This document shows positions 7,548 through 37,994 of a stretch of DNA of 56,476 bases, piece by piece (within the stretch, counting starts at the first letter, position 1; the number at the start of each line of letters is the position of its first letter). Source of the stretch: a virus; IMG/VR virus record IMGVR_UViG_3300034096_000849, positions 1 through 56,476 of that record, one strand, 5' to 3'. The translations under genes were made by a program, and so were the position numbers. The notes beneath the pieces were generated by a model that was not told the DNA's origin, made no database searches, and saw only the letters and a list, made by a program, of their open reading frames with translations.

Positions 7548-8608
7548 CCGACAACAAGACCGCGGCCGAGATCCTCCTGGACCAGATCATCCGGCGCCAG
7601 ATCGTGGCGCTGCGGGTCCGGGAGGGCTTCGCGCGTGAGCAGTCGCGGTTCTTTGACATGGAGTTTGCGCGGCCCCTGTTGGCCGAGGTCATGGCCAGGC
7701 TGCCGAACGTTCCGCAGCTCGGCCAGGACATCAGCGAGGCCACGAGCAAGCGCCTGGCGGCCCTGTACGAGAAGCTCGACAACATGACCGACGAGGCCTA
7801 TTCGTCGATGCGAGGTGCTGCGCAGAAGACGCTCCTCACGATCGCCAAGGTCGAATCGAGCTGGGCCGCATCTGCGCTTGCCCGATCGGTTCCGATCGAA
7901 TTCTCGTTCCAGAAGGCCTCTCCCGATTACCTTCGATCGATTGTCAGAGCGCGCCCGTTCCAGGGGAAGGTGCTCAAGGCGTGGTACTCCGAGCTTGGAG
8001 ATGCGACCAAGGCGCGCGTGCGTTCGGAGATCCAGCAGGGACTCCAGACCGGCCAGAGCGTCACGGACATCGCCAAGCGGCTCAGCGGGACCAAGGCAGC
8101 CGGCTATCAGGATGGGGCTCTGGCGATCAGCCGGCGGCATGCGGAGACGATCGCGGCGACGGCCGCCAACCACGTTTCGACGCACGCCAGGCAGGCCACC
8201 TACGAAGCCAACGCGGCGCTCATTAAGGGCTATCGGTTCGTCGCCACGCTGGACAGCCAGACCTCGAAGGTTTGCGCCAGCCTCGACCAAAAGACGTTCG
8301 AGCTGGGCAAGGGCCCGATGCCGCCGATGCACATGCGCTGCCGCTCGAGCACCGTGCCTTGGCTCAAGAGCCTCCGCGAGCTAGGCATCGACGTTGACGA
8401 TGCACCGCCAGGCGCGAGGGCTTCGATGAACGGCGCGGTCCCTGGCGACCTCAGCTTCGAGAGGTGGCTCAAGCAACAGCCTGAGGAGTTCCAGCGCAAG
8501 TGGCTGGGTCAGGGGCGATTCGAACTGTGGAGCAAGGGCTTGTCCATCGGCGACATGATCGGGCCCGGCCTTAAGCCGCTGCCGTTGTCGGCGCTGACCG
8601 CGGACTGA
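7544..8608 (+). CDS. Head morphogenesis protein, SPP1 gp7/MuF-like
   Basis: 354 residues. The C-terminal third has the MuF/gp7 signature: SRRHAETIAATAANH, then DSQTSKVCASLDQKTF and PPMHMRCRSSTVPW, with paired cysteines that suggest a bound metal. Proteins of this family are packaged in a few copies, bind the portal and help early head assembly or DNA ejection. The gene overlaps the portal gene by four bases. About 146 bases separate it from the scaffold start; that gap holds only two GCCAAACGC repeats. Confidence 0.87.
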   Translation: MTDNKTAAEILLDQIIRRQIVALRVREGFAREQSRFFDMEFARPLLAEVMARLPNVPQLGQDISEATSKRLAALYEKLDNMTDEAYSSMRGAAQKTLLTIAKVESSWAASALARSVPIEFSFQKASPDYLRSIVRARPFQGKVLKAWYSELGDATKARVRSEIQQGLQTGQSVTDIAKRLSGTKAAGYQDGALAISRRHAETIAATAANHVSTHARQATYEANAALIKGYRFVATLDSQTSKVCASLDQKTFELGKGPMPPMHMRCRSSTVPWLKSLRELGIDVDDAPPGARASMNGAVPGDLSFERWLKQQPEEFQRKWLGQGRFELWSKGLSIGDMIGPGLKPLPLSALTAD

Positions 8609-8754
8609 AAGCCAAACGCGGGCCAAACGCAAGCTTGGCGAGTGCGCGCCGCGCCTAAGACGGGGCAGCCGCGGCGCGTAGGCAGGGCCTTCGTTGCGCG
8701 CGGCGCTCCCGTTCTCTGCGGCCTGTGGCCGTGGGCAGTGCCCGAACGCCTCGA

Positions 8755-9543
8755 ATGTCTCTGAAACTCCAACTCGCCAGCAAAGACGGCGTGCCCGAGG
8801 GGCTCGCCCAATTCGTCAAGACCGACGGCAACGCCACGATCCTCGAGCTTCCCGATGGGTGGGGCATCGACAACGTGTCGGGTCTGCGGTCCAAAAACAG
8901 CGAACTGCTGGGCGAAGTCCGCCAGCTCAAGTCGAAGCTCGACCCGATCAAAGACCTCGATCCGTCCGACGTGCAAGCGAAGCTCGCGCGCCTGGCTGAG
9001 CTCGAGGCGCAACCTCCCGGCAGTGGCATCAAGGCCATCGAGGAGGCCCGCAAGCAGCTCGAGTCCCAGTACCGCAAGGATCTGGACCAGACCAAGGCCG
9101 AGGTGCTGACGCTGCGCGAAGAGCGCAAGCGCGCCGCGCTCGCCCAGGCGGAAGCCCAGGCGCTGCGCGAGAGCAAGCACAAGCCGCTGCCCGGTGTCGA
9201 GTACCTGCTCCGCGAGCACCTGAGCGTGCTCGAAGAGGACGGGCAGCTCCACGTCGTAGTGGTCGATCCCGCGAGCCGCAGGCCTCGCGTCACGACCAAG
9301 CCCGGCGGCTCTGGCTACATGCGCGCCGACGAGCTGATCGAAGAGCTGGCGACCAACGAGCGATTCGGCCACCTGTTCCAGGGGAACGGCAAGGTCGGAG
9401 CTGGAGTCACGGGACGCAACGGGGCTGCTGTGCCCAATCCCTGGATGAAAGGCCAGGTGAACGTCACGAAGCAGATGGAGCTGATGAGCACAAACCCCGA
9501 CCTCGCCAACCAGCTCAAGGCGCAAGCCGCTTCGAGCAAGTGA
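8755..9543 (+). CDS. Capsid scaffolding protein (putative)
   Basis: 262 residues with a long, charged coiled-coil centre (about residues 45-145, many KL, AEL, EEARKQLE-type heptads) and a C-terminal region rich in N, Q and basic residues. This architecture and the position between the MuF gene and the major capsid gene are typical of head scaffolds, which guide shell assembly and leave afterwards. No protease domain is visible in it or nearby. I chose ATG 8755 rather than the upstream GTG 8725. Confidence 0.75.
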   Translation: MSLKLQLASKDGVPEGLAQFVKTDGNATILELPDGWGIDNVSGLRSKNSELLGEVRQLKSKLDPIKDLDPSDVQAKLARLAELEAQPPGSGIKAIEEARKQLESQYRKDLDQTKAEVLTLREERKRAALAQAEAQALRESKHKPLPGVEYLLREHLSVLEEDGQLHVVVVDPASRRPRVTTKPGGSGYMRADELIEELATNERFGHLFQGNGKVGAGVTGRNGAAVPNPWMKGQVNVTKQMELMSTNPDLANQLKAQAASSK

Positions 9544-9557
9544 CCACCTACTGACAG

Positions 9558-10622
9558 ATGGCAACCGCAGTCACCAACGTGATCGTTCCGAGTGTGTTCG
9601 GCCAGTACATGGCCGAGCAGTCCACTCTCTCCTCTCGAATCATCCGCAGCGGCATCGCCCAAGCGGACTCGAGCATCGGAGCGCTCTTTCCCAACTCCTC
9701 GGGCATCATCGCCCGAATTCCCTTCTGGCAGCCGCTGGCCGACGCTGCCGCCAACGCTTCCAGCGACACCCTGGCCAACTCGGCGACCCCGCGGACTCTG
9801 ACCGCTGACGATCAGATCTGCCGCCGCATCGACCGCAACGACTCGTGGCGCACGATGGACCTGGCCGTGATGCTGGCCGGGGACGACCCCTTCGGCGCCC
9901 TGCTGTATGGCAACGGCGCAATGCAGGGTGGCGCGATGGAGTGGCTGTTCCAGCAGCAGCAGCGAGACCTCGTTGCGACCCTCACGGGTGTCGTTGCGGA
10001 CAACATCGCCAACGACTCGGGGGACATGGTGTTTACCGTCGGCGTCACCGGCACTTCTGCCGCCGGCGCTGCCGCTGCAACCGACAAGATCAGCCCGACC
10101 GCGATCGCTCTTTCCCGCCTGACCCGCGGGGACAAGGGCATGCAAGCGCCGATCTTCGTCTGCCACTCGGTTGTGGCCGCCGAGCTGGCGATTCAGGGCC
10201 TGCTCCAGAAGATCGACTCCAACGGCCGCGTGCTGTCGGAGTTCGAGTCGCTGTCCACCCAGACGCTGAACTACAGCCAAGCGCTGGGCATGACCATCTT
10301 CATCGACGACCGCTGCCCCGCGGTGGCCGACGGCGCCTCGCGCACCATGTACACCAGCTACCTGGTGGAGCCTGGCTTCATCCGGTACGCGCCGCTGGTG
10401 CCGAAGGTCCCGATCGAGTTCGACCGCCTGCCGCTTGTCGGCGATGGCGGCGGCGCGGATCAGATCACGATCCGCTTCGGCTACGTGATGCACCCGACCG
10501 GTTTCGAGTGCACGGTCTCCACTCCGACGATCTCTGCCGCCACCCTGGCGACCGCCACGACCTGGAACCGGGTTTGGGGCCGCAAAAACATCGGCTTCGT
10601 CGCCATCCGCTCGAACGGCTGA
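9558..10622 (+). CDS. Major capsid protein
   Basis: 354 residues, starting MATAVTNVIVPSVFGQYM; this N-terminus and the SGIIARIPFWQPL segment resemble a family of phage coat proteins encoded after MuF and scaffold genes. Expected fold is HK97-like. Length, location and lack of any enzymatic motif support the role of shell subunit. The gene is followed closely by a 71-residue small protein. No ribosomal frameshift or fused decoration domain was seen. Confidence 0.85.
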   Translation: MATAVTNVIVPSVFGQYMAEQSTLSSRIIRSGIAQADSSIGALFPNSSGIIARIPFWQPLADAAANASSDTLANSATPRTLTADDQICRRIDRNDSWRTMDLAVMLAGDDPFGALLYGNGAMQGGAMEWLFQQQQRDLVATLTGVVADNIANDSGDMVFTVGVTGTSAAGAAAATDKISPTAIALSRLTRGDKGMQAPIFVCHSVVAAELAIQGLLQKIDSNGRVLSEFESLSTQTLNYSQALGMTIFIDDRCPAVADGASRTMYTSYLVEPGFIRYAPLVPKVPIEFDRLPLVGDGGGADQITIRFGYVMHPTGFECTVSTPTISAATLATATTWNRVWGRKNIGFVAIRSNG

Positions 10623-10627
10623 TCCCC

Positions 10628-10843
10628 ATGACTGAACAACTCGACTTCTCGGAATGCGTCCAGCGCAAGCTGGCGGAAGAGCGCGCCGCGCTTCAGCTGC
10701 GCGCTCAGGCCCAAGCGGCAAACTCGCCCGAGGGCATCAGCAAGGCGATGCAGGCCGAAATCGCTGCTGTCGAGGCTCGCCTTGCCAAGCAGATCGATTC
10801 GGTCTTCGCCAAGATCGAGGCCGTGATCAAGGCCAAGGGCTGA
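10628..10843 (+). CDS. Small helical virion-module protein
   Basis: 71 residues, almost wholly predicted alpha-helical and rich in A, K, E and Q. It lies 5 bases after the capsid gene and 8 bases before the glycoside-hydrolase-like gene. Its place suggests a head accessory protein, but no family was recognised. Confidence 0.6.
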   Translation: MTEQLDFSECVQRKLAEERAALQLRAQAQAANSPEGISKAMQAEIAAVEARLAKQIDSVFAKIEAVIKAKG

Positions 10844-10851
10844 CCTGACGG

Positions 10852-13254
10852 ATGGCGCGCCCGCTGCTCCTGAACCAGGCGATCCTCGAGGACTTTGAGT
10901 CGGGGATCCCTTTCAAAAATCTGTTTCTCCAGAGCCGCCCCTGGCTCAGCGAAGCAGCGGGCACCTTCGGTCTTTTCGTTAGCAACGGCGGCACCGTTGC
11001 GACCGACGCGAACGGCTGGCAGACGCTCTCTGCCGGCCAGCGCGCGGGAACACTCATGTGCCGTGAGCTGCAAGTGTCCGGCGTGGACGGGGCTGGCCTG
11101 TACCCGCCGGGCAACTACGTTCTCACCTACACGGGCGTAGGCCGCATCATCCTGGGATTCGACGCTGTGCCCCAGGAGAAAGAATCGAACAACCTCTGGG
11201 CCAAGCCGCAGAGCCCTGGGCGGATTCTGTTCAGCGTCCCGGCGGCAACCGGCGCGGGCATCTATCTGGGGATCGACGAGCAGGACGCGGGGAACCCGGT
11301 CCGCAATATCGTCGTCACGCGCACCGAGTTCGAGGGGACGCTCGCCGCGAACCCGTGGGACCCGGCGTTCCTGATCGACATGGCGCCGTTCTCGTGCCAG
11401 CGGGTAATGAACTGGCAGCGGATCAACTATCACCCGTACGCCAACTGGAGCGACCGCGCGACGCTTTCCAGCGCACGCTACACCACGCGCCGCGGCGTGC
11501 CGTTGGAGCTGCTGATCGACCTGGCGAATCGCACCGGGGACGATCTGTACGTCTGCATCCCGCACAAGTACACGGACGCGGCTGTCCAGTCGATGGGGGA
11601 CCTCATCAACTCGACGCTGAATCCGCAGATCAACGTATGGGTCGAGTACTCCAACGAGATCTGGAACTCGCTATTTGACTTCAACCCTGGTTTTTCAGAC
11701 TGGGACGCGAGCGACGGCCAGGGCGCCTACTGCGAGACCCAAGGCCTCGCGCTTAGCCTTGACGCAAACGCATACCAGGCACGGCTCAAGTTCTACTCGC
11801 GGCGCGCACGGCAGGTGCTTGGGATCTTCCGCGCCCGATTCTCGAACCCTGCGCGCGTCAAGCGCGTAATCGGCGGCCACCACGAAGGCGACGACTCGAA
11901 CAACAACACGATCCTCGACTTCGAGTCGGCAAGCTCGAACGCTGAGGCCTTCGCCACTGCGCCGTACTGGGGTGACAACTCTGGCGGCCTGGCGAACGCG
12001 CAGAACACGATCAACTCGATGCAGACCGACCTGAACGGCACGGTCAGCGCGAAGATCGCAGACCACAAGGCGCGCTCATCGTCCCGCGGGCTCCAGTACA
12101 TCTACTACGAGGGGGGCACGTCCCCGATCCCGACGAACGGCGCGCAGGTGGAGGTCGTCAAGGAAGCCCTATACGACGTGCAGATGCTCGACCAGTACGA
12201 GCAGTTCTTCGCCACGAGCCTTGCTGCTGGCGTCGATCTTGTGGGGGTCTACAGCTACTGCACGAAGTACGGCACGAACGGGGCATTCGGCCACCTGCGC
12301 CGCGTTGGCGAGAGCCCGCGCCCGCCTCGTTGGATTGCGCTTGAGAATTTCGTCAACCAGACCGTCACCGCGCCCACGACTCCGCCGAGCCAAGCGCTTG
12401 TGGACGCCTACTACGGCTTCGACTTCGGGTCTTCCAAGTGGAAGGCCTTCGCTGGCCCGCAGCCGAAGACGACCTTCTTTGGCAGCGTCATCGACTTCTT
12501 TGGGCCGCTGTATCGCACGCAGATCCTAGCCTCGAACACGGAGTTCACCGTCTCGAACGCGCTCCGCGGCGCCCGCCTTGTGCTTGAACTGCAAGGGGAC
12601 TTCCAGGTGCGCTGGCCTTCGAGCTTCCGCATCCGCTCGGGGCGCTACGACGGCCGCGACAGCCGCCTGAACATCGTCAGCATCTATTGCGTCGAGCACT
12701 CGGGAACCCCTCAGTTCGACGTGACGATCGAGACGCTGCCGGCTGCGCAGACTGGCCTGCTGCTTCGCCAAGCGCTTGTGACTAACGACTTCACCACGCT
12801 CTTCGGGAGCTGGGCCGAAGTGTTGAGCACCACCGCGGCAACGCCGGCGACAGCGAACCGCTACAGCCGACTGGGCGAGATCGAGCGCTTCCGCCGCCGT
12901 GATGGCTTCTTCTATCTGCGCGTCCGCTACCCGCTCAGCAATGGCGGCGACAGCCAGCCCCAGTCAATCGCTTGGCGCCAGCGCAGCAGCCCGATAGAGC
13001 CGATCGCCCGCGAACGAGTCGTTGGCTACCAGCTCTTGGCGAACAACCTCATCAACGCCACGCCCTACGGCGGCCTGTGCCGTACCTCGGTCAACGAGGC
13101 GTGGCTCAGCTACGCCCCCGGGCAGATCGCGGCCTTCGTGCCGTTCCTCGCCATATCGAGGCACGGCCTGGCGCCTTTCTTGGCGCTCGGCAACTCGCTG
13201 ATCCTGAGCCCCAACCAGCTGCTTACCACGGCCGTCGAGCTGTACGCGGACTGA
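10852..13254 (+). CDS. Glycoside hydrolase-like protein (virion-associated depolymerase candidate)
   Basis: 800 residues. A TIM-barrel glycosidase-like core spans about residues 130-500. VEYSNEIWN places a likely acid/base Glu at 269 after Asn268, as in clan GH-A-type enzymes, and IYYEGGTSP offers Glu420 as the nucleophile. The N-terminal ~120 residues look like a beta carbohydrate-binding domain, and the last 300 residues (jelly-roll-like, many aromatic residues) may attach the protein to the particle. There is no signal peptide. It is located unusually between capsid and connector genes and is followed by two esterase-like genes, which suggests attack on an acylated host polysaccharide. Confidence 0.65.
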   Translation: MARPLLLNQAILEDFESGIPFKNLFLQSRPWLSEAAGTFGLFVSNGGTVATDANGWQTLSAGQRAGTLMCRELQVSGVDGAGLYPPGNYVLTYTGVGRIILGFDAVPQEKESNNLWAKPQSPGRILFSVPAATGAGIYLGIDEQDAGNPVRNIVVTRTEFEGTLAANPWDPAFLIDMAPFSCQRVMNWQRINYHPYANWSDRATLSSARYTTRRGVPLELLIDLANRTGDDLYVCIPHKYTDAAVQSMGDLINSTLNPQINVWVEYSNEIWNSLFDFNPGFSDWDASDGQGAYCETQGLALSLDANAYQARLKFYSRRARQVLGIFRARFSNPARVKRVIGGHHEGDDSNNNTILDFESASSNAEAFATAPYWGDNSGGLANAQNTINSMQTDLNGTVSAKIADHKARSSSRGLQYIYYEGGTSPIPTNGAQVEVVKEALYDVQMLDQYEQFFATSLAAGVDLVGVYSYCTKYGTNGAFGHLRRVGESPRPPRWIALENFVNQTVTAPTTPPSQALVDAYYGFDFGSSKWKAFAGPQPKTTFFGSVIDFFGPLYRTQILASNTEFTVSNALRGARLVLELQGDFQVRWPSSFRIRSGRYDGRDSRLNIVSIYCVEHSGTPQFDVTIETLPAAQTGLLLRQALVTNDFTTLFGSWAEVLSTTAATPATANRYSRLGEIERFRRRDGFFYLRVRYPLSNGGDSQPQSIAWRQRSSPIEPIARERVVGYQLLANNLINATPYGGLCRTSVNEAWLSYAPGQIAAFVPFLAISRHGLAPFLALGNSLILSPNQLLTTAVELYAD

Positions 13255-13257
13255 CCC

Positions 13258-14730
13258 ATGGCAGACGTCCTGATCCCCGAGGCCGGCGCGCCGATCGACT
13301 TCTGGCGCTTCATGGCCTCCAGCTCTGAGACCCCGCGGCGCCTGTGGGTGTTCCTCGGTCAAAGTAACATGGTCGGCTACAACTCGGGCCGGTCGGTGCT
13401 GACCATTGACCAGCTCTTGCCGAACATTGAGTGCCAGGACGTCGACGACGCGATCGTCCCCGCGCGCTACCCGTTCCCGTTTTACCTGCCGAACTCGACC
13501 GAGTACGAGCCGCTCTGGAGTATCGCCAACATCAACGTCTCGCCGGCGATGAGCTTCATGCAGTCGCTCGCGCGGACGAACACGGAGGCGCGTCTTGTCG
13601 CTTCGATGGGCGCGATCGGCGGCTCGAGCTTCACCGGCGCGCTCGCCGCGCGCAACTGTGCAAGCCCGGGCAGCACCTACAAGCTGGCGAACAATCTCCG
13701 CGATCGCATTGTCGCCAGGATCAACTCGGCGATCGGTCAAGGGTGCATCCTCGAAGGCTTCGTCTGGTGCCAGGGCGAAAACGACGCTGTGAACCTGCAC
13801 AACGCCGGCAACACGGCGGCGCAGACGCAGGCAATCTACAGCGCAGAGCTGATCCGCCTGATCGACGATCTGCGCGGCGGCGCGATCATCAACGACGCGT
13901 TCGGCAGCCATACGCACAAGCCGTTCCTCATCCTGGAGATGCCGCGGACGCTGACCGGCACGGCGTCTTCCGCGATCCCGGCGCCGACTCTCGCGCCGAC
14001 TCTGCCCGAGTCGATCCTTTTTGCCATCGAGGCCGCCAAGCGCGTGGTCGCCCGCGACGTGCCCTATTGCGCCTACGTGGAGAGCGGCGGCCTTGCCAGC
14101 GAAGCGGACGCGATCCACTACACCGGCGCTGCTGCCCGCGAGCTTGGGCACCGCGCATTTGGTGCCATCGACCGGGCGCGCCAAAACGTCACCAGCACCA
14201 CGACGAACGCGCGCCAAGGGCTCCCGACGCTGCCGCGCGCGCGCTACGTCACAGTCAACGGCCGCCGCTGCGAATTCGAGTTCGGCAACAACCTCCGCGG
14301 GGCAGGCTTCTCGGGCGCCGCGATCTCTGACTCCCTGGGCACGGTGGTGAACCAGCTCTGGGGTGGCACTGGAGTCGGCGCCCTCTTCAGTCAAGCGCTC
14401 GCGTTCGACGGCGCGCACCTCGTCAGCGTCAACCTGGGCACCGGCGCCAAGGTCAGCGAGTCGGCCGTTGCCGTTGGCACTGGCGGCGCTCCCGAGCACT
14501 GCATCCAAGTGGACGGTCTGTCTGGAGTTTTCGGAGACGTGCGCCTTCGCACTACGCCGACCGCGATCACGCTCGAGCGCAACGGCGCCGTCCTGTTCAC
14601 GTTCGCGCTGTCCACGGGCTCGGTCGAGAACCACACCAGCAATGGCCCGCTGATTCTCCGCAGCCCAAACGGCACGCGCTACGCGCTGCGGGTCACCAAC
14701 GCCGGCGTCCTCGACATCACTGCCGCCTGA
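13258..14730 (+). CDS. SGNH/sialate O-acetylesterase-like carbohydrate esterase
   Basis: 490 residues. The three SGNH/SASA blocks are visible: FLGQSNM with the nucleophile Ser36, WCQGEND around residues 170-176, and DAIHYTG with Asp284 and His287. This family removes O-acetyl groups from sugars. The C-terminal ~170 residues are beta-rich and may bind the virion or carbohydrate. The ATG is three bases after the previous stop, in the context TGACCCATG. It probably works with the neighbouring glycosidase-like and hydrolase-like proteins on a decorated capsule or exopolysaccharide. Confidence 0.75.
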   Translation: MADVLIPEAGAPIDFWRFMASSSETPRRLWVFLGQSNMVGYNSGRSVLTIDQLLPNIECQDVDDAIVPARYPFPFYLPNSTEYEPLWSIANINVSPAMSFMQSLARTNTEARLVASMGAIGGSSFTGALAARNCASPGSTYKLANNLRDRIVARINSAIGQGCILEGFVWCQGENDAVNLHNAGNTAAQTQAIYSAELIRLIDDLRGGAIINDAFGSHTHKPFLILEMPRTLTGTASSAIPAPTLAPTLPESILFAIEAAKRVVARDVPYCAYVESGGLASEADAIHYTGAAARELGHRAFGAIDRARQNVTSTTTNARQGLPTLPRARYVTVNGRRCEFEFGNNLRGAGFSGAAISDSLGTVVNQLWGGTGVGALFSQALAFDGAHLVSVNLGTGAKVSESAVAVGTGGAPEHCIQVDGLSGVFGDVRLRTTPTAITLERNGAVLFTFALSTGSVENHTSNGPLILRSPNGTRYALRVTNAGVLDITAA

Positions 14731-14732
14731 GC

Positions 14733-15815
14733 ATGGCACTTCTTCGACCCAATCACGTCGTAGCCTACGACCCGTCGGGCGTCTTGACTGCCAACCAGCA
14801 AGCGCGCGTCTACTACGACCCGACGATCAAGCCGGACACCGGCGGCCGTCGGCGCGTGTACGTGCTCCAAGGCGGCGGCTTCCTGCCTGGCTCTGGCACG
14901 CTGCCCGATGGCTGGGACCCTGACCTTGGTGGCGAGCTGGGGCTCTGCTACAAGGCCGGGGATGCCGTGGTGATGGTCGGCTATACGCCGCACTCGCCGA
15001 CGATCTTGGGCCAGGGGGCGTTCGACTATCAGCAGTGGAACCTCGGCCCTGGCGAGGTGCTGACGCTGGATAGCAGCAATCCGGCGAAGATGGCGCGCCG
15101 CTGCGCAGAACGCGACGTGGTGAACTGCCTGCAACACTTCGCCACGTTCCAGGTTGGCGACCTGTCGCGGAGCCCGCGGCGCGCGGCGCTGTGGGCAAAG
15201 AGCGCGGGATTCCTTGCTAGCAGCTTCGCAGTGTTCGGCCCTCAGCGCGGCGATTCGACCGCGACGATCGAGCGTTTCAGGGCCCCGACGCGCGTCGCCG
15301 CGTTCATGGGCCGCGCTTCGATCTCGAGCCCGCCGGCTTGGCTGCACACTCGCTTCTTGCGCCACTGGAGCAACGGCTTCGGTGTGGCGGCGCAGACGAT
15401 TGGCGGCGCGGTCAACGCATCGAACCCGGCCAACCTCTTCTCTGGCCTGATCAACATGCGCCAATCGTCGGCGCTTTGGATGATCGAGGCGAACAGCCCG
15501 CAGATGGCCCAGGCGCGCCGCGACAACGCCTCGATGCCCGTCTGGATCGAGAACACCGGCAGCGTGGCGTTCCAAGGACCCTACACCTACAGCGGCATGT
15601 GGAACGTCCTAACCGAGGATCACCCGCCCGAGGCCGTGATGTCGATCCAGACCGTGCTGCAAGCGCTCCAAGCGGAGTTCCCTGCCGAGTACGTCCACGA
15701 CGCAAAGTCGGCATTTGTGCTGACCGGGCCTGGCGAGACCGCGCCCACCGACGAAGACCGTTGGGCTTGGCTCGACCAGTCGATGGAGCAGGCCCCCTAC
15801 GTCAAGGTGCTCTGA
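14733..15815 (+). CDS. Alpha/beta-hydrolase-like esterase
   Basis: 360 residues. RRVYVLQGGGF at 40-50 resembles the oxyanion-hole HGGGF of carboxylesterases, and ALWAKSAGF puts Ser157 in a nucleophile-elbow position (AxSxG rather than GxSxG). A late His could come from EDHPPEA, but the triad is not certain. The protein shares the context and likely the target of the two enzymes before it, giving a three-enzyme cassette. There is no signal peptide. It overlaps the next gene's ATG by one base. Confidence 0.55.
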   Translation: MALLRPNHVVAYDPSGVLTANQQARVYYDPTIKPDTGGRRRVYVLQGGGFLPGSGTLPDGWDPDLGGELGLCYKAGDAVVMVGYTPHSPTILGQGAFDYQQWNLGPGEVLTLDSSNPAKMARRCAERDVVNCLQHFATFQVGDLSRSPRRAALWAKSAGFLASSFAVFGPQRGDSTATIERFRAPTRVAAFMGRASISSPPAWLHTRFLRHWSNGFGVAAQTIGGAVNASNPANLFSGLINMRQSSALWMIEANSPQMAQARRDNASMPVWIENTGSVAFQGPYTYSGMWNVLTEDHPPEAVMSIQTVLQALQAEFPAEYVHDAKSAFVLTGPGETAPTDEDRWAWLDQSMEQAPYVKVL

Positions 15816-16378
15816 TGGCTCTGATCGTCGAAGACGGCTCCGCGGTCGCTGGTGCAGAGAGCTACATCAGCGTGGCCGATGCGGACGACTACATCGGCAA
15901 GTGGGTCGCTGACCCTTCCGCGTGGCAGGCTCTTGCAACGTCGGCTAAGGAAAACAAGCTGCGCCAGGCTACGCAGTACCTGGATGCCGTGTTCGTGACT
16001 CGCTGGAAGGGCTACATCGCCACCAGCGGGCAATCGCTCAACTGGCCGCGCCAGTACGCCTACGATGAGCGCGGCAATAGCATCGAGGGGGCGGTCCCGC
16101 TTGAGCTGCGGCGCGCCACGGCGACGGTTGCGGCTGCTGCTGCTGCTGCTCCGCTCGTGCCGCTCGGTGGCAGCGCCACGACCGACAACCAAGCGATCGT
16201 CGAGCAGGAGGTCGAGGTCGGCCCGATCAAGCGGCGGACCAAGTACGCAGAGCCCGCAGCGCTCAGCTCTGGCGGATTCCCCAAGATCGGCGCGGCCGGC
16301 GGCATCATCGCCCTGGTCTCGTCCATGCTTTCGCCGCTCCTTGCGGGTGGTGGCAGCGGGAGCGTGATGCGCTCGTGA
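15815..16378 (+). CDS. Head-tail connector, DnaT-like family
   Basis: 187 residues beginning MALIVEDGSAVAGAESYISV, a hallmark of the phage family named DnaT-like ssDNA-binding protein, which in many siphoviruses sits where the head-tail adaptor gene is expected. LRQATQYLDAVFVTRWKG and LNWPRQ are further family blocks. The C-terminal part (about residues 145-187) adds a hydrophobic glycine-rich tail. Despite the family name, location argues for a connector rather than a replication role. Confidence 0.75.
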   Translation: MALIVEDGSAVAGAESYISVADADDYIGKWVADPSAWQALATSAKENKLRQATQYLDAVFVTRWKGYIATSGQSLNWPRQYAYDERGNSIEGAVPLELRRATATVAAAAAAAPLVPLGGSATTDNQAIVEQEVEVGPIKRRTKYAEPAALSSGGFPKIGAAGGIIALVSSMLSPLLAGGGSGSVMRS

Positions 16379-16740
16379 CTGAGCTAGACGACCAGATCCG
16401 GCCCGAGGTCTTGGATATCGTCCAGGAGCTCGGCAAGGCCATCGAGTTCAGGGTGACGACCGAGGCGTACGACGTCGCGTCGGGCGTGACCACGCCGCTG
16501 TCCATCCAGTGGGTGTCGGTTAAGTGCTCGCCGCCCAGCCAGTACCAGATCAGCCGCGACGGTGAGCCGGACAAGCTCATGGAGACGCTTGGCACGCTCG
16601 TGCCTGCGCTCGGGCTTACGTTCGAGCCCAAGGTCGAGCAGATCGTCCGCTTCGACGGTCGGGAGCGGCGCATCGTTTCCGTGGGCAAGATCTACTCGGG
16701 CGACCTGATCGCGGCTTTCGTCCTGGGGCTGTCCACGTGA
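16375..16740 (+). CDS. Head closure / head-tail joining protein (putative)
   Basis: 121 residues from GTG 16375, overlapping the connector stop. It is a small beta-rich protein with no named motif that I can assign firmly; the TLVPALGLTFEPK and RRIVSVGKIYSGD segments fit the short beta-barrel of head-closure proteins. Position between the adaptor and the gp10-like gene supports the call. Confidence 0.6.
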   Translation: MTELDDQIRPEVLDIVQELGKAIEFRVTTEAYDVASGVTTPLSIQWVSVKCSPPSQYQISRDGEPDKLMETLGTLVPALGLTFEPKVEQIVRFDGRERRIVSVGKIYSGDLIAAFVLGLST

Positions 16741-17234
16741 GCTTCCGCGACCTGAGCCTCCAATTGTCGGACGAGGGCGACAATCTCGAGCTGCGCTACC
16801 TGATCCTGGTGCGCCGGCTCGCGCTGGACGCGCTGACTCGCGTCGTGCTCCTGTCGCCCGTGCGGCTGCCGCCGAAGCCCGGGAGCAAGCGCCGGCGCAT
16901 CCCTGGAGGGCGGCTTCGCGGCGGCTGGCAGCTCGGGCTCAATGCGACGCCCCAGGGCGTGCCGCCGACCAAGGACCAGTCCGGCTCGGCCACTATCGCG
17001 GCGAACCAGGGCAAGGCCGAGTCCGTGAGCCTGGGCGACGTGGTGCACCTCGCCAACAACGTGGCATATGCCCCGATCATCGACGAGGGCCGCAAGGCCG
17101 CGACCGTGACCGTCCGCCGCGGGGGCAAGGCCGTGACCTTCTCGCGGCAGCAGGGCTCGATCCAGGCGCTCCGCGGCATGACGTTGGTGGCCGCCGAGGA
17201 GCTGCGCGCCAGCTACGGCGGGAGGGTGGTGTGA
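16737..17234 (+). CDS. HK97 gp10-like tail completion protein
   Basis: 165 residues from GTG 16737. The pattern of an arginine/proline-rich N-terminal half, then LANNVAYAPIIDEGRKA and a C-terminal amphipathic helix is that of the HK97 gp10 family, in which the phrase N-x-x-x-YA-x-x-x-E-G is typical. These proteins complete the neck or tail end before the tail terminator, which is what the next gene encodes. Confidence 0.72.
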   Translation: MSFRDLSLQLSDEGDNLELRYLILVRRLALDALTRVVLLSPVRLPPKPGSKRRRIPGGRLRGGWQLGLNATPQGVPPTKDQSGSATIAANQGKAESVSLGDVVHLANNVAYAPIIDEGRKAATVTVRRGGKAVTFSRQQGSIQALRGMTLVAAEELRASYGGRVV

Positions 17235-18082
17235 GCTACTCGGAGATCGCCTCCAGGCTTCGCCAGGCCATCCAGAGGCCGCTGGATGCCGCCATGCCCC
17301 CGGGAGCCGAAGTGCTGTGGCCGAATGCGCCAGGTGCCACGGCAGAAAGCCAGGAGGCCGGGCCCTGGGCCGCCGTGGACATCCAGTGGCTAGGCGTTGA
17401 CTCCCTAGCCTTCGGTGCGGGGCTGAGGCTGCGCCACCGGGGCATCCTCGAGGCCGTCCTGGTCTGGCCGGCGGGCGCCGGCGAGGGCGGCCTGTTCGCT
17501 GCCGCCGATCAGCTGGCCTCGGCGCTGACCGAGACCACGGCGGGGCCGGTGCGCATCCGCCAGCCCGAGCTGGTCGATGCCGATGCGGGCGAAGGGTGGG
17601 CAGCGAGAGCGTTTCGCCTCGCCTGGACGGCCGATGAAACCAAAAGCAAACCTTCGGAGATTGAAGCGCCCGAGGAGGGTACATGGGCGCTTGGATCTGC
17701 TGCGATCAGGCAGGCACTCTCCGCAGTCGTCGCCGCGAGTACAGGCCTCACGGTGGTCTACGGGAACGCTCCGCAGGAGTCGCCGCCCGTGACCGAGGCC
17801 AGCGTCTACGCGAGAGTCCTGACTGGCGCGCAGATCCCTAACCAAGCATCCGAGTCCAGCGACGCAACGAAGATCGGCGCCTTCCTTGCCGACATCGTGA
17901 CGCCCGCTGGCACCGGAACCGGACTAGCTTTCTCGATCGCCGACAAGATCTCGAATGCCCTCTCGATGGCCAAGGCTGGCCGCATCGAGCTGGGCGCCGC
18001 GACCTTGACCGATCAGAGCCTAGTAGGCCCCTCGTGGGTCACCACGATCCAGATCCCGTACCGCTTGACCCACGCTCACTGA
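17231..18082 (+). CDS. Tail terminator with two fused domains
   Basis: 283 residues. Both halves look like tail terminator subunits: residues ~7-36 (IASRLRQAIQRPLDAAM, VLWPNAP) and residues ~155-185 (AAIRQALSAVVAASTG, VVYGNAP) share the opening helix and the following strand. Each half has the usual ~140-residue length. A tandem fusion could form a hexameric ring as a pseudo-trimer of dimers. The gene lies between the gp10-like and tail tube genes, as expected. The GTG start overlaps the previous stop by four bases. Confidence 0.7.
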   Translation: MSYSEIASRLRQAIQRPLDAAMPPGAEVLWPNAPGATAESQEAGPWAAVDIQWLGVDSLAFGAGLRLRHRGILEAVLVWPAGAGEGGLFAAADQLASALTETTAGPVRIRQPELVDADAGEGWAARAFRLAWTADETKSKPSEIEAPEEGTWALGSAAIRQALSAVVAASTGLTVVYGNAPQESPPVTEASVYARVLTGAQIPNQASESSDATKIGAFLADIVTPAGTGTGLAFSIADKISNALSMAKAGRIELGAATLTDQSLVGPSWVTTIQIPYRLTHAH

Positions 18083-18088
18083 CCAGAC

Positions 18089-19543
18089 ATGGCTCTCATT
18101 AACGCGCCCGCAGTCGCCGAAGGCACCCGAGTCGCCATCGCCAAGGAGACGACCTACAAGGTCGCGCCGACCGGCGAGGCCAACGTCCTGCCGATCTCCG
18201 GCGAGAGTCTGCGCCTCGACAAGCGCTACACCGACAGCCCGACGATTTCGAGCAACCGCCGCTCGCAAGGCCAGACCCAAACCGGGCAAGGCGTGAGCGG
18301 TGGCGTCAACTTCGCTCTGCGCGCAAAGGCCTTCGACGAGTACTTGGGCGCCGCGCTGTGGGCCCCCAACTGGACCTCGGGCGTCGCCGCGTTCCCCTCT
18401 GGCACGCCGCTCGATGCGACGATCGCGGTTAACTTGACCCGCTTCGAGTTCTTTTCGGCCGGCAATCAGCTGCCGGTGTTCGCCGCTGACGACGTGGTGA
18501 GCGTGACCGATGCGCGCAACTGGAACCACGTCGGCACCTACCGCGTGGCCACTGGCAGCACGCCGACCGCCGGCACCTTCCTGGCGCTCAAGCTGGACGG
18601 CACCGCGCCCTTCGCCGATGCCGTGGCTCAATCGCTGCGCATCGTCAAGGTTGGCGAGTTTGGGAGCTTCACCCTGACCGCGACCGTGGGCGGCACGAAG
18701 GCCACGATTGACATCCTCGACTCGAACGGCGCCGCTGCGGCTGTAGCTCAGGGCTGGATCAAGCTGGGCGGGTTCACTACCAACCAGGGCAACAACGGCA
18801 TCTGGCAGGTCGAGTCTGCGAGCACCACGACCCTGACGCTGGTGCGAAACGACGGCAGCTCTCTGTTCGTCACCGAGACTGACGCTTCCTCCTGGTGGGC
18901 CATCGGCGAGTACGCGCAGGACGGCCAGACCCGCAGCTCGTACTCGATCGAGAAGCGCTTCGACCTCGCGTCCGATGTGTTCGAGCTGCACCTCGGCTGC
19001 GTCGTGGACCAAGGGACGCTCAACTTCAGCGTGGGCGAGCCGATTTCTGGCACCTTCGCGTTCCAGGGTGCGACCATGACCTCGCCGGCCGCGGCGCAGT
19101 TCTCGACCTACATCGCCCAGCCTCAGACCACCGAGTACGGGCCTGCTCAGGACGTGCGCGCCGTGCTGGCTGGTGGCGTCGGTGTGAGCCTGCGTTCGGC
19201 CAGCTTTCAGGTTGCCAACAACGTGCGGCCGATCGAGGAGCTGGGCGTGCTCGGCGCGTCGCAAGTCGTGCCCGGCACCTTCGCGCTGACTGGCACGCTC
19301 CAGGCCTACATCGAGGATGGCTCGCTGCTGTCGCGCTTCGCCAACGGGACCTTCACCCGCATTGACCTCTTGGCCTTCGACTCGCAGGCGAACGGCTACC
19401 TCATCGTCCTGCCGCGCACCAAGTTCACCGAGGCGCCGGCCAATGCCACGGGCAAGAACACCGACGTGTTTGCCCAGGTGGCGTTTGCCAGCGAGGAAGA
19501 CCTTGCCGCCGGCTACCAGGCCCGGATCTACCGCTACCTCTGA
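18089..19543 (+). CDS. Major tail tube protein
   Basis: 484 residues, longer than a minimal tube protein. The N-terminus (APAVAEGTRVAIAKETTY) and the TDSPTISSNRRSQGQ block resemble siphovirus tail tube proteins. The central part, about residues 125-290, has Ig-like or fibronectin-like character and may be a decorating insertion. It stacks into hexameric rings around the tape measure. Placement directly before the G/GT chaperones is classical. Confidence 0.82.
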   Translation: MALINAPAVAEGTRVAIAKETTYKVAPTGEANVLPISGESLRLDKRYTDSPTISSNRRSQGQTQTGQGVSGGVNFALRAKAFDEYLGAALWAPNWTSGVAAFPSGTPLDATIAVNLTRFEFFSAGNQLPVFAADDVVSVTDARNWNHVGTYRVATGSTPTAGTFLALKLDGTAPFADAVAQSLRIVKVGEFGSFTLTATVGGTKATIDILDSNGAAAAVAQGWIKLGGFTTNQGNNGIWQVESASTTTLTLVRNDGSSLFVTETDASSWWAIGEYAQDGQTRSSYSIEKRFDLASDVFELHLGCVVDQGTLNFSVGEPISGTFAFQGATMTSPAAAQFSTYIAQPQTTEYGPAQDVRAVLAGGVGVSLRSASFQVANNVRPIEELGVLGASQVVPGTFALTGTLQAYIEDGSLLSRFANGTFTRIDLLAFDSQANGYLIVLPRTKFTEAPANATGKNTDVFAQVAFASEEDLAAGYQARIYRYL

Positions 19544-31841: not shown

Positions 31842-31929
31842 GGCTTGGTGGGGTCTGTGGTGGTCTTGGCTTGCCTCATCAGTGCGCCGGGGGCCACCCG
31901 AGCGCAGACCGGCCGGGGCCGGTTTCGGC
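31838..31929 (-). repeat. 92-bp direct repeat, copy A (ribozyme plus leader)
   Basis: 91 of 92 bases match the copy at 32307-32398. In leftward reading it comprises the hammerhead ribozyme, then a C/A-rich leader and the ATG of the next gene. The single difference lies in the stem I loop of the ribozyme. Confidence 0.9.
31873..31929 (-). ncRNA. Type II hammerhead ribozyme A
   Basis: Read leftward, the order is GCC (stem II), GAAA, stem III hairpin CCGGCC/GGCCGG, UC, stem I hairpin UGCGC/GCGCA extended by CGGG/CCCG, CUGAUGA, GGC (stem II). All conserved core bases of a hammerhead are present: CUGAUGA, GAA plus the A15.1-U16.1 pair, and C17 at a GUC site. Predicted cleavage lies between bases 31907 and 31906. 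It begins 6 bases after the stop of the preceding gene and ends 31 bases before the next start codon. Stem II is only 3 bp, as in several natural type II forms. Confidence 0.88.
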
Positions 31930-31935
31930 GGGGGT

Positions 31936-32310: not shown

Positions 32311-32398
32311 GGCTTGGTGGGGTCTGTGGTGGTCTTGGCTTGCCTCATCAGTGCGCCGGGAGCCACCCGAGCGCAGACCGGCCGGGGCCGGTTTCGGC
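32307..32398 (-). repeat. 92-bp direct repeat, copy B (ribozyme plus leader)
   Basis: Partner of 31838-31929 with one mismatch. Its upstream edge abuts the stop codon of the gene at 32399. Confidence 0.9.
32342..32398 (-). ncRNA. Type II hammerhead ribozyme B
   Basis: Identical in all core and stem bases to ribozyme A; one C-to-U change (in RNA) is in the 5-base loop of stem I, where it does not alter pairing. Predicted cleavage lies between bases 32376 and 32375. The 5' GCC of stem II follows immediately after the UGA stop of the upstream gene, and the ATG of the next gene lies 32 bases beyond the 3' GGC. Confidence 0.88.
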
Positions 32399-32668
32399 TC
32401 AGTCGGTGCGCCGCACGTACCGGCCCTCGGAATCCACGTCGAGGGTGGCCACCAGGAACTGATAGGGGATGTAGTCGCGCTCCCGTTCGCCAGGCAGCAG
32501 GGATGCCATGAGGCGAAAGTTGTCCCGGGCAGCAACCCCACCTTCGACCAGCGTGCCCACCAGGACGCCCACAGCTTTGTGGTGCAGGCTGCCCTCAATG
32601 CGGGCCAACTGGACAGCTTGGGCGAGGGTTTGCTGGGGCAGGCAGGTGGCTTGGGCGCTGGCGTTCAT
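32399..32668 (-). CDS. Unknown first protein of the ribozyme operon
   Basis: 89 residues from ATG 32668 (MNASAQATCLPQQTLAQ). It is helical and without a known domain. Like the other genes in this operon, it has a leader ending in a C/A-rich stretch and GCC-ATG. Its stop codon touches ribozyme B. Expression probably starts from the promoter-like element at 32726-32758. Confidence 0.58.
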   Translation of the reverse strand: MNASAQATCLPQQTLAQAVQLARIEGSLHHKAVGVLVGTLVEGGVAARDNFRLMASLLPGERERDYIPYQFLVATLDVDSEGRYVRRTD

Positions 32669-36614: not shown

Positions 36615-37994
36615 ATGCAAGCAACCATCGAGACCACCCGCCTGGCCGAGGCGATCGCCGCCCTCGTCCAGGCCCCGGCCAGGCCCAGCGCCCGGCTGGA
36701 ATCCGTCGTCCAGGCCTACCTGGAGGCCCAGGCGCCCCACGTGGGGGCCGAGCATCACCGATTCACCCAGCGCAAGATCCGCGACCTCCTGGGAGCGCTC
36801 CAGGCCACGGCGCGAGCCGCCGGCCGCCGGCTGGAGCTCGTCGCCGACCTCGAGGCCGGCCAGGTCTCGGCCTGGATGCGGGCCCGCCTGGACCAGGGCA
36901 TGGCCAGCGCGACCGTCCGGGGCCACGTGGCGGCGCTCAAGACCGCGCTGGCCTGGGCAGTCGAGCAGGAGATCATCGAGCGCAGCCCCCTGGGCAAACT
37001 GCGCCTGCCGGCCATCGGGCGGGCGCGCCAGACTCGGCCCCGGGGCCGCCCGGACTCCGAGCAGATCGCCGCGCTGATCGGGGCCGCCAGCGCCCAGGAC
37101 CATGCAGCCGCCGACGGCATCCCCCAGCTCCCGCTGCTGTGGACGATGATCCGGACCGGCATCCGCCGGGGCGAGGCCATCGCCGCGCGCCGTGGCGATT
37201 ACGACCGCCGCGCCAGGGTGCTCCGAATCCGCGCGGAGAGCGCCAAGACCAAGCGCGGCCGGGTGCTGCCGCTGGAGGACGAGGACTGCGCCGCCATCGA
37301 TGGGGCGATTGCCGCGACGGATCGCCTCCTGGGCCGCCAGCTCGACACCGCGCCGCTATTCCGCTCGCGCCGCGGGGCGAAGCTCCAGCCGCGCAACGTC
37401 TCACGCTGGATGGACCAGCTCTTGCGCGCCGCCGGCGTCCCCAAGCGCAACGCCGCGGGCGAGGCCATCTGCCTGCACTCGCTGCGCCACGCCGCGGCCG
37501 ACAGCCTCGCGGCCACCAACCTGCGCGCCGCCCAGCTCCTGCTCGGGCACACGACCAGCCGCACGACCGAGGGCTACCTGCACTCGACCGATGCTGACTA
37601 TCTGCGCGCCGCGATCCAGGGCCTGCCGCGGCCCGATGTGCAGAACCTGCTCACAACTGGTGTCCCAGGACTCGCAGTCGAGGCTCAGGTGTCCACCGGA
37701 GGAGGCGGCAAAAAACCGCCCCGCAGGGCCACTGGAATGGGTGAGCGAGGGGACTCGAACCCCCGACCCCGAGAACCACAATCTGGGGACGGTTTTCCGG
37801 CATCTTCCAGACAAACCGCCCAGACGAAACCCGAACAGCTGGCCGTCGAAATCCAGGTCCAGTGGCTCCGGGAAGGCCAGGAGATCCTGCTCCCGACTGT
37901 CGAGGCGCTCCGCGCGCTCCTGCTCGCCCAGGAGCCGCTCGCCACGCTTCTTCGCCGCGGCGCCGTGCGCATCAAGGGGGTGGCCCGTGGCTGA
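36615..37994 (+). CDS. int: Tyrosine integrase
   Basis: 459 residues. Catalytic residues are visible: Arg in GIRRGEA (Arg184), HSLR (His288, Arg291), LLGHT (His312) and EGYLH (Tyr321). A SAM-like core-binding domain spans residues ~20-130. The catalytic domain ends near residue 360. The remainder (VPGLAVEAQ onwards) is antisense to a tRNA-like 3' half at 37738-37796, typical of an attP that overlaps the integrase 3' end. The enzyme would integrate the phage at a host tRNA-His gene. Confidence 0.92.
   Translation: MQATIETTRLAEAIAALVQAPARPSARLESVVQAYLEAQAPHVGAEHHRFTQRKIRDLLGALQATARAAGRRLELVADLEAGQVSAWMRARLDQGMASATVRGHVAALKTALAWAVEQEIIERSPLGKLRLPAIGRARQTRPRGRPDSEQIAALIGAASAQDHAAADGIPQLPLLWTMIRTGIRRGEAIAARRGDYDRRARVLRIRAESAKTKRGRVLPLEDEDCAAIDGAIAATDRLLGRQLDTAPLFRSRRGAKLQPRNVSRWMDQLLRAAGVPKRNAAGEAICLHSLRHAAADSLAATNLRAAQLLLGHTTSRTTEGYLHSTDADYLRAAIQGLPRPDVQNLLTTGVPGLAVEAQVSTGGGGKKPPRRATGMGERGDSNPRPREPQSGDGFPASSRQTAQTKPEQLAVEIQVQWLREGQEILLPTVEALRALLLAQEPLATLLRRGAVRIKGVARG
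37738..37796 (-). other. Candidate attP: tRNA-His-like 3' half
   Basis: Leftward, the sequence reads as the 3' half of a tRNA: anticodon loop TTGTGGT (anticodon GTG, His) with 3' stem TCTCG, a variable region, T-arm GGGGG-TTCGAGT-CCCCT and acceptor strand CGCTCAC. No 5' half exists in the phage, so it is not a tRNA gene but probably the crossover core matching host tRNA-His. Confidence 0.75.

Follow-up and report, generated by a model that had tools for sequence, protein, structure and literature searches.

We analysed the complete IMG/VR virus record IMGVR_UViG_3300034096_000849 (56,476 bases; hereafter the window), the left part of which holds the structural operon of a long-tailed (siphovirus-type) phage. 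The operon runs in the order terminase large subunit, portal, Mu-F-like head protein, scaffold and major capsid protein, then passes through a block of three genes that is the subject of this work, and continues with the head-tail adaptor Ad1, head closure, Neck1, tail terminator, tail tube, assembly chaperone and tape measure. The block genes encode, on the + strand, proteins of 800, 490 and 360 aa (proteins 1–3; Table 1): a predicted glycoside hydrolase (GH), a predicted acetylesterase of the SASA/CE6 type and an orphan. They are read almost without interruption, with spacers of 3 nt and then 2 nt, and the stop codon of the third gene overlaps the start codon of Ad1 in the sequence TGATG (15813-15817). 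An earlier reading, made from the letters of the sequence and their open reading frames (the sequence-only reading), had placed a three-enzyme carbohydrate cassette between capsid and connector genes, and the location of the block was borne out by the open reading frames and by the matches of the bordering genes to phrog_247 and phrog_477.

Table 1. Positions in the window of the block genes and their neighbours.
Feature	Position	Strand	Remarks
Major capsid (head) protein	9558..10622	+	phrog_247, E 1e-56; upstream border of the interval
71-aa protein	10628..10843	+	Between capsid gene and block; coiled-coil-like by eye
Protein 1, predicted GH	10852..13254	+	N-terminal beta domain and (beta/alpha)8 barrel, 1-505; 300-aa C-terminal part, fold unassigned
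Protein 2, predicted SASA/CE6-type acetylesterase	13258..14730	+	PF03629; 180-aa C-terminal part, fold unassigned
Protein 3, 360-aa orphan	14733..15815	+	alpha/beta-hydrolase-like motifs by eye
Head-tail adaptor Ad1	15815..16378	+	phrog_477, E 5.4e-33 (scan from 15812); downstream border
Head closure Hc1, Neck1, tail terminator	16375..18082	+	phrog_161, phrog_169, phrog_179

Protein 1 had been described as glycosidase-like with Glu269 and Glu420 as signature residues, and this description held: E269 lies in EYSNEIWN, E420 lies in YYEGG, and a fold of clan GH-A is predicted. The AlphaFold2 model was confident over most of residues 1-505, with pLDDT values below 50 from residue 508, and the confident part contains the (beta/alpha)8 barrel that characterizes the clan. 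When the PDB was searched with this model by Foldseek, 66 matches at E<=1e-3 were obtained, the top rows being GH10, GH5, GH51 and GH53 enzymes; the list also included doubtful rows, e.g. a pyruvate carboxylase. Comparison by VIA gave a Z score of 23.3 against the GH51 arabinofuranosidase 6zt9 (rmsd 3.8, 311 residues aligned), 23.0 against the GH79 heparanase 5bwi and approximately 20 against GH5_4, and a Foldseek search of viral models returned a single match at E<=1e-3, with a low TM-score. In the predicted model, N268-E269 follow the strand 262-266 and E420 follows the strand 415-418. The Glu pair is thereby located behind strands 4 and 7 with an Asn before the acid/base, as in clan GH-A; the strands were numbered by counting back from the last one, and the placement was read from their positions. 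Among 33 aligned rows of the family, E420, which was absent from the search pattern, was kept in at least 90%, and E269, whose position was in the pattern, was invariant. These results support the prediction that protein 1 is a clan GH-A glycosidase.

The family of protein 1 has no entry in Pfam above the cut-off (the best match was PF19342 at E 0.029), NCBIfam, PHROGs or the PDB sequences searched; the profile made from the 33 rows likewise gave no match among PDB sequences, and no relative of protein 1 was found in 50,697 phage records.

The SGNH acetylesterase-like nature proposed for protein 2, with Ser36, Asp284 and His287, agreed with its match to PF03629 (56.5 bits, gathering cut-off 24.8), which begins at residue 28. 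The residues are in place: S36 in GQSN, the motif WCQGEND at 170-176 (Q172-G173-E174), and D284 and H287 in DAIH, as in SGNH-type enzymes. The best PDB row, the esterase 2apj, was weak (E 0.11) and aligned at the same motifs. A weak match to the tail fibre family phrog_4201 (E 4e-4) covered the SASA domain only. No relative of protein 2 was found in the 50,697 phage records, no significant match was obtained for its last 180 residues, and a motif-pattern search for SASA relatives recovered only near-identical copies. The assignment of protein 2 as a predicted SASA/CE6-type SGNH carbohydrate acetylesterase is thus supported by the family match and by the residues in place.

For protein 3, the serine to which the sequence-only reading had pointed is present (S157, in AKSAG), but no acid or His partner was recognised, and the alpha/beta-hydrolase nature of the protein could not be confirmed. 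The protein matched no Pfam family at E values up to 10 and nothing in NCBIfam or PHROGs, and its AlphaFold model, with a mean pLDDT of 34, was unusable. Searches for relatives (tblastn of the 50,697 phage records, plasmids, viral scans and a genome scan) gave only near-identical copies or nothing, an outcome checked by tblastn and phmmer, and a search in seven records, including L091, L094 and L103, gave no match. We therefore weighed two views of this protein. The chance that it is a second esterase is roughly even: QGGGF (46-50), the strand GDAVVMVGY and the Ser elbow follow one another by eye as they do in HSL-type esterases. The view that it is a structural or decayed protein, which would leave a two-enzyme set, falls a little short of an even chance, and is favoured by the lack of family, relatives and usable model, by an elbow unlike the classic GxSxG, and by the absence of a certain partner His, as none of its seven His residues lies within a known motif. 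An hhalign comparison with six Shinella alpha/beta-hydrolase loci scored 12.3, within the range of 60 shuffles (mean 13.2), but three of the six loci were in the wrong frame.

To judge the integrity of the block we used nine contigs that match the window at the DNA level with 96.6-100% identity. Two of them, L001 (6908-18002) and L003 (4146-22251), come from two other metagenome assemblies and cross the entire block at 99.99-100% identity; since both run through it, an artefact of assembly was ruled out. In the C-terminal part of the GH gene, 39 in-frame bases (12677-12715) are missing from contig L003 and 2 bases (12730-12731) from contig L005, and window 12677-12731 is a polymorphic or assembly-prone spot. 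The GC3 values of the block genes (0.84-0.86) lie among those of the other listed structural genes (0.79-0.93; the 71-aa gene 0.76). That the block is a recently gained foreign piece was not supported by base make-up, as its GC and GC3 are like those of its neighbours. Within 8400-18200 no promoter-like match was found, and terminator-like matches numbered two, where chance alone would give 5.5.

Contig L008 is identical to the window until 9629 and then shows 91 differences in the capsid gene (window 9630-10373). Contig L011 is near-identical over the SASA and third genes and then diverges through the neck genes, the divergence of L011 and L012 beginning at about 15539. Its codon differences from the window number 1 of 189 in the SASA gene, 5 of 361 in the third gene and 25 of 189 in Ad1; the differences inside the block are too few for measuring selection. 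In these strain mosaics, recombination apparently alters the alleles of the capsid and neck genes on either side of the block.

We then compared the interval between the capsid and adaptor genes with that of related phages. The window capsid protein had tblastn matches in 364 of the 50,697 phage records, each below 60% identity, and 16 of these records were fetched. The distance from the capsid stop to the start of the Ad1 frame was measured in 14; the other two, BUCT626 (where the stretch ends early) and 000TH010, had no Ad1 match. The interval was 368-2137 bp long in 13 of the 14, whereas Alteromonas phage R7M has 4132 bp and the window, counted up to the start codon of Ad1, 5192 bp (10623-15814). 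Its content varied: a 'putative head fiber protein' is annotated there in Xanthomonas phage XAJ2, a 'putative head protein' and an 'Ig-like domain-containing protein' in 590B, and an HNH gene lies there in Shewanella phage 3/49. In R7M it holds a 1155-aa 'hypothetical protein' (L094 8231-11695) with PKD and Ig-like domains, the stop of which overlaps the Ad1 start; its middle part appeared propeller-like by eye. The capsid-to-adaptor interval is thus a variable accessory site in these relatives. In the window, it begins with the 71-aa gene, which occupies the position of the gene for the 62-aa 'putative head fiber protein' of XAJ2. A homology between the two was rejected, as the sequence comparison revealed no similarity; the 71-aa protein had no PHROG, and its best Pfam match, PF05597 (E 0.031), was under the cut-off.

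Enzymes among head genes exist elsewhere, as is seen from the SGNH-like genes of XAJ2 and Xp15. In XAJ2, a gene annotated as 'hemagglutinin-like' (L091 4495-6201) and located between the head morphogenesis and scaffold genes encodes an SGNH/GDSL-like esterase (phrog_8480, E 1.4e-29; PF13472, 30.1 bits, slightly below the cut-off), and Xp15 has a relative of this protein upstream of the terminase. No second case of two or three enzymes together among head genes was found in the relatives examined. The view that the combination is unusual is upheld for the records searched: none of the three proteins has a relative among the 50,697 phage records. Single carbohydrate-active genes are present in or near head genes of other phages.

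The GH family itself is more widespread. Protein 1 has relatives on plasmids, 25 of them, with 25-30% identity. When viral contigs were scanned for EYSNE[I/V/M]WN, 68 stretches were obtained, and tblastn gave 57 diverged loci after near-identical ones had been removed. A further genome scan, in which the GH motif was longer, gave no match, the pattern probably being too strict. In other phages the family is represented by a stand-alone protein of 495-517 aa, and the loci fetched for comparison gave no match to the C-terminal parts of either the window GH or the SASA protein. When 40 viral records were searched, a SASA protein accompanied a GH family member in one, namely in a 1092-aa frame of the podophage-like L059 record. 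Chosen neighbours were typed by PHROG in 14 of the 57 diverged loci, which were picked by eye as phage-like and so give a biased count. Head, packaging or connector genes lay in the fetched stretch of eight (L059, L037, L015, L041, L030, L035, L054 and L049), and neither these nor tail genes in that of four (L044, with one 'DNA ejection' match, L016, L014 and L056). In L059 (7044-8594) a GH with a lipoprotein-like N-terminus lies between a phrog_332 adaptor gene and capsid genes, and in L037 (4051-5706) one of the same kind lies between terminase and portal genes.

A counterpart of the window arrangement was found in the unrelated phage L041, where a diverged family member occupies the same capsid-to-adaptor interval. 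The order there is portal (phrog_12), protease (phrog_1684), capsid (typed by Pfam, PF05065), a 592-aa protein, GH, adaptor (phrog_442), head closure (phrog_161), a phrog_16336 gene, tail terminator (phrog_179) and tube (phrog_290). The 592-aa protein gave no Pfam match; judged by eye, its repeats resemble those of cadherin or Ig-like proteins, and the end of its gene overlaps the GH start. The portal, protease and capsid of L041 are of other families than those of the window, and in the tree the L041 GH groups with a Paracoccus protein, apart from the window GH (SH-aLRT 97). The tree is a quick one with long branches, from which 13 loci with fragmentary or weak matches, including L015, were left out; the end branch of the window row is long, and its exact place is unsure. 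From this grouping it is likely that the GH arrived at the interval independently in L041 and in the window.

Two bacterial neighbourhoods link the family to polysaccharides. On a Shinella zoogloeoides plasmid the family gene lies between O-antigen-ligase and polysaccharide-export genes, and the plasmid of Shinella sp. PSBB067 has the same gene order at 72-76% identity. A mannose-1-phosphate guanylyltransferase gene is present in the fetched neighbourhood of a Sulfitobacter copy; the remaining fetched GH-bearing records had no polysaccharide neighbours or no annotation. It is well known that exopolysaccharide clusters can include glycosidases (PMC9894940).

The N-termini of the three proteins were examined by a hydropathy heuristic, which is not a signal-peptide predictor. 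No hydrophobic N-terminus was seen in any of them, as the sequence-only reading had noted for signal peptides: the best 12-residue values were 1.27, 1.07 and 0.98 for proteins 1–3, compared with 1.58 in the capsid protein and 2.3-3.5 in relatives that bear a signal, such as L059, L037 and L058. The L059 start reads like a lipoprotein signal (LLLFACVLASC), and bacterial GH rows begin by eye with Tat- or Sec-like leaders. A start was listed for 38 viral GH rows, many of them near copies; 27 of these had an N-terminal stretch more hydrophobic than the capsid control and 11 did not, at a threshold of 1.6 that was set afterwards; the stretch in L048 and L070, which are identical in sequence, looks like a plain helix. 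The GH proteins of the window and of L041 have no such stretch and would therefore depend on the virion or on lysis for reaching the outside.

Taken together, the findings suggest that the block encodes an exopolysaccharide deacetylase/glycosidase set that is made with the head proteins and is probably virion-borne, a reading to which we give an even chance of being correct. The SASA enzyme would strip O-acetyl groups from a polysaccharide of the host surface or matrix, the GH-A enzyme would cleave the sugar backbone by a two-glutamate mechanism, and protein 3 might act as a second esterase. The set would be translated along with the capsid and neck proteins and would leave the cell bound to the head or neck of the virion, the C-terminal parts that are unique to proteins 1 and 2 perhaps serving as anchors; exit on the virion appears most likely because the proteins have no export signal. 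There, the enzymes could help the particle to enter or leave an exopolysaccharide layer. The activity, the substrate, the attachment to the virion and the role of protein 3 are what we infer from genes and models. An acylated polysaccharide as the target is a fair inference from an acetylesterase together with a glycosidase whose Shinella relatives lie beside polysaccharide genes, and the substrate suggested by an acetylesterase next to an enzyme of this kind is an O-acetylated exopolysaccharide or capsule. The distal tail genes of the window match DUF2460, phrog_778 and phrog_4271 and resemble those of gene transfer agents; with the alphaproteobacterial relatives of the GH, this leads to the guess that the host is one of the Alphaproteobacteria.

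Several findings weigh against virion-borne enzymes on the head or neck. Profile searches recognised no capsid- or tail-binding domain in the three proteins; the C-terminal parts of the GH and SASA proteins have neither relatives nor an assigned fold, so that their role as an anchor is a guess; several phage GH members have export-like N-termini and may be virion-independent; tail genes only were found in the fetched stretch of two of the 14 typed loci (L045 and L019); and docking at the tail of the window phage is conceivable.

The same lack of export signals and of recognised virion-binding domains would fit soluble enzymes that are a bulk product of the head operon and are released at lysis to dissolve the matrix and let the progeny spread, the location of the genes then reflecting strong late expression only. 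The family elsewhere is a stand-alone enzyme, in many cases with an export-like N-terminus, which agrees with this idea. The block, however, parts the capsid from the adaptor genes, where several relatives have proteins annotated as structural, and the GH and SASA proteins bear C-terminal parts that were unmatched in the loci fetched for comparison. We regard free late enzymes as possible but rather unlikely.

It would be more surprising if the proteins were depolymerases docked at the tail or neck, tailspike-like, with genes that merely stand near the beginning of the operon. Deacetylases are known as structural tailspike proteins (excerpt of PMC11126041), the SASA domain weakly matches a tail fibre family, and the GH relatives of L045 and L019 lie beside tail genes. 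A tailspike would be expected to carry an N-terminal tail-binding domain, but the GH family match begins at approximately residue 4 and the SASA match at residue 28, and there was no tail-domain match outside the SASA domain. We consider this arrangement improbable. Very improbable is the idea that the enzymes are host cargo altering the surface of the infected cell itself, e.g. as a barrier to superinfection or to later adsorption, and are not involved in entry: changes in O-acetylation are a known phage strategy, but without export the enzymes could not reach an outside polymer before lysis, and a late head operon would be poor timing.

A wider and more doubtful proposal, which we offer tentatively, is that some siphovirus-type phages carry polysaccharide-degrading enzymes on the capsid or neck and not on the tail, enzymes and adhesins being exchanged at the interval. 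Under this proposal the window would hold a glycosidase from a GH-A family not yet described, together with one or two deacylases, and unrelated phages such as L041 would have come to a like arrangement independently. Phage depolymerases are usually sought and annotated as tail parts. Were the proposal true, many 'hypothetical' genes between capsid and adaptor would become candidate biofilm-dissolving enzymes, and the view that the tail alone handles the host coat would need widening. The occurrence of the GH family in many viral contigs and bacterial plasmids, twice beside exopolysaccharide genes, offers a lead to a new enzyme specificity.

Outside the structural genes, the window contains two type II hammerhead ribozymes on the - strand (31864-31930 and 32333-32399; 44.1 and 44.4 bits, gathering 37), which lie inside a 103-nt direct repeat of 97% identity, spaced by 469 bases, downstream of the tail genes. 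A single tRNA-His(GTG) gene is located at 37739-37817 on the - strand; the listed structural genes are on the other strand.

When compared with known systems, protein 1 shares the barrel fold with enzymes of clan GH-A (GH51, GH79, GH5 and GH10; Z 19-23 in the rows shown), whereas its sequence identity to them is 7-13%. The Shinella relatives belong to the same family as protein 1; unlike the bacterial proteins, the phage protein has no leader and carries an extra C-terminal part. PslG of the psl cluster is an analogue of these relatives beside exopolysaccharide genes. Tailspike deacetylases and SGNH-like esterases, e.g. gp41 of Acinetobacter phage Aristophanes, act on capsule O-acetyl groups, and the excerpt of PMC11126041 likens the tailspike esterases to sialic acid-specific acetylesterases, the same SGNH kind as protein 2. 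The Aristophanes-type enzymes are tailspikes, whereas protein 2 has no tail domain and lies between capsid and adaptor genes together with a glycosidase. The GDSL esterase P2_42 of Vibrio phage Peru-2 is abundant in purified virions and structurally unresolved, its location in the internal core being a speculation of its authors (excerpt of preprint PMC13320782). It adjoins the tailspike gene of a T7-like phage, and a glycosidase partner is not mentioned in that excerpt. No paper listed by searches for capsid-linked depolymerases or esterases describes the arrangement of the window in its title or in the opening of its abstract.

The head decoration proteins and fibres Hoc, pb10, SPP1 gp12 and phi29 gp8.5 bind host-surface carbohydrates (excerpt of the review PMC7602432). 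As described there, they bind without cutting, and neither 'hydrolase' nor 'depolymerase' is used anywhere in that review. The block resembles genes annotated in this way in the relatives by its position in the capsid-to-adaptor interval. The SGNH protein of XAJ2 is, like the block, encoded in a head cluster, but by a single gene located before the scaffold gene, and it has another fold. The 1155-aa protein of R7M is likewise the product of a single gene and of another fold, but it occupies exactly the same interval as the window block.

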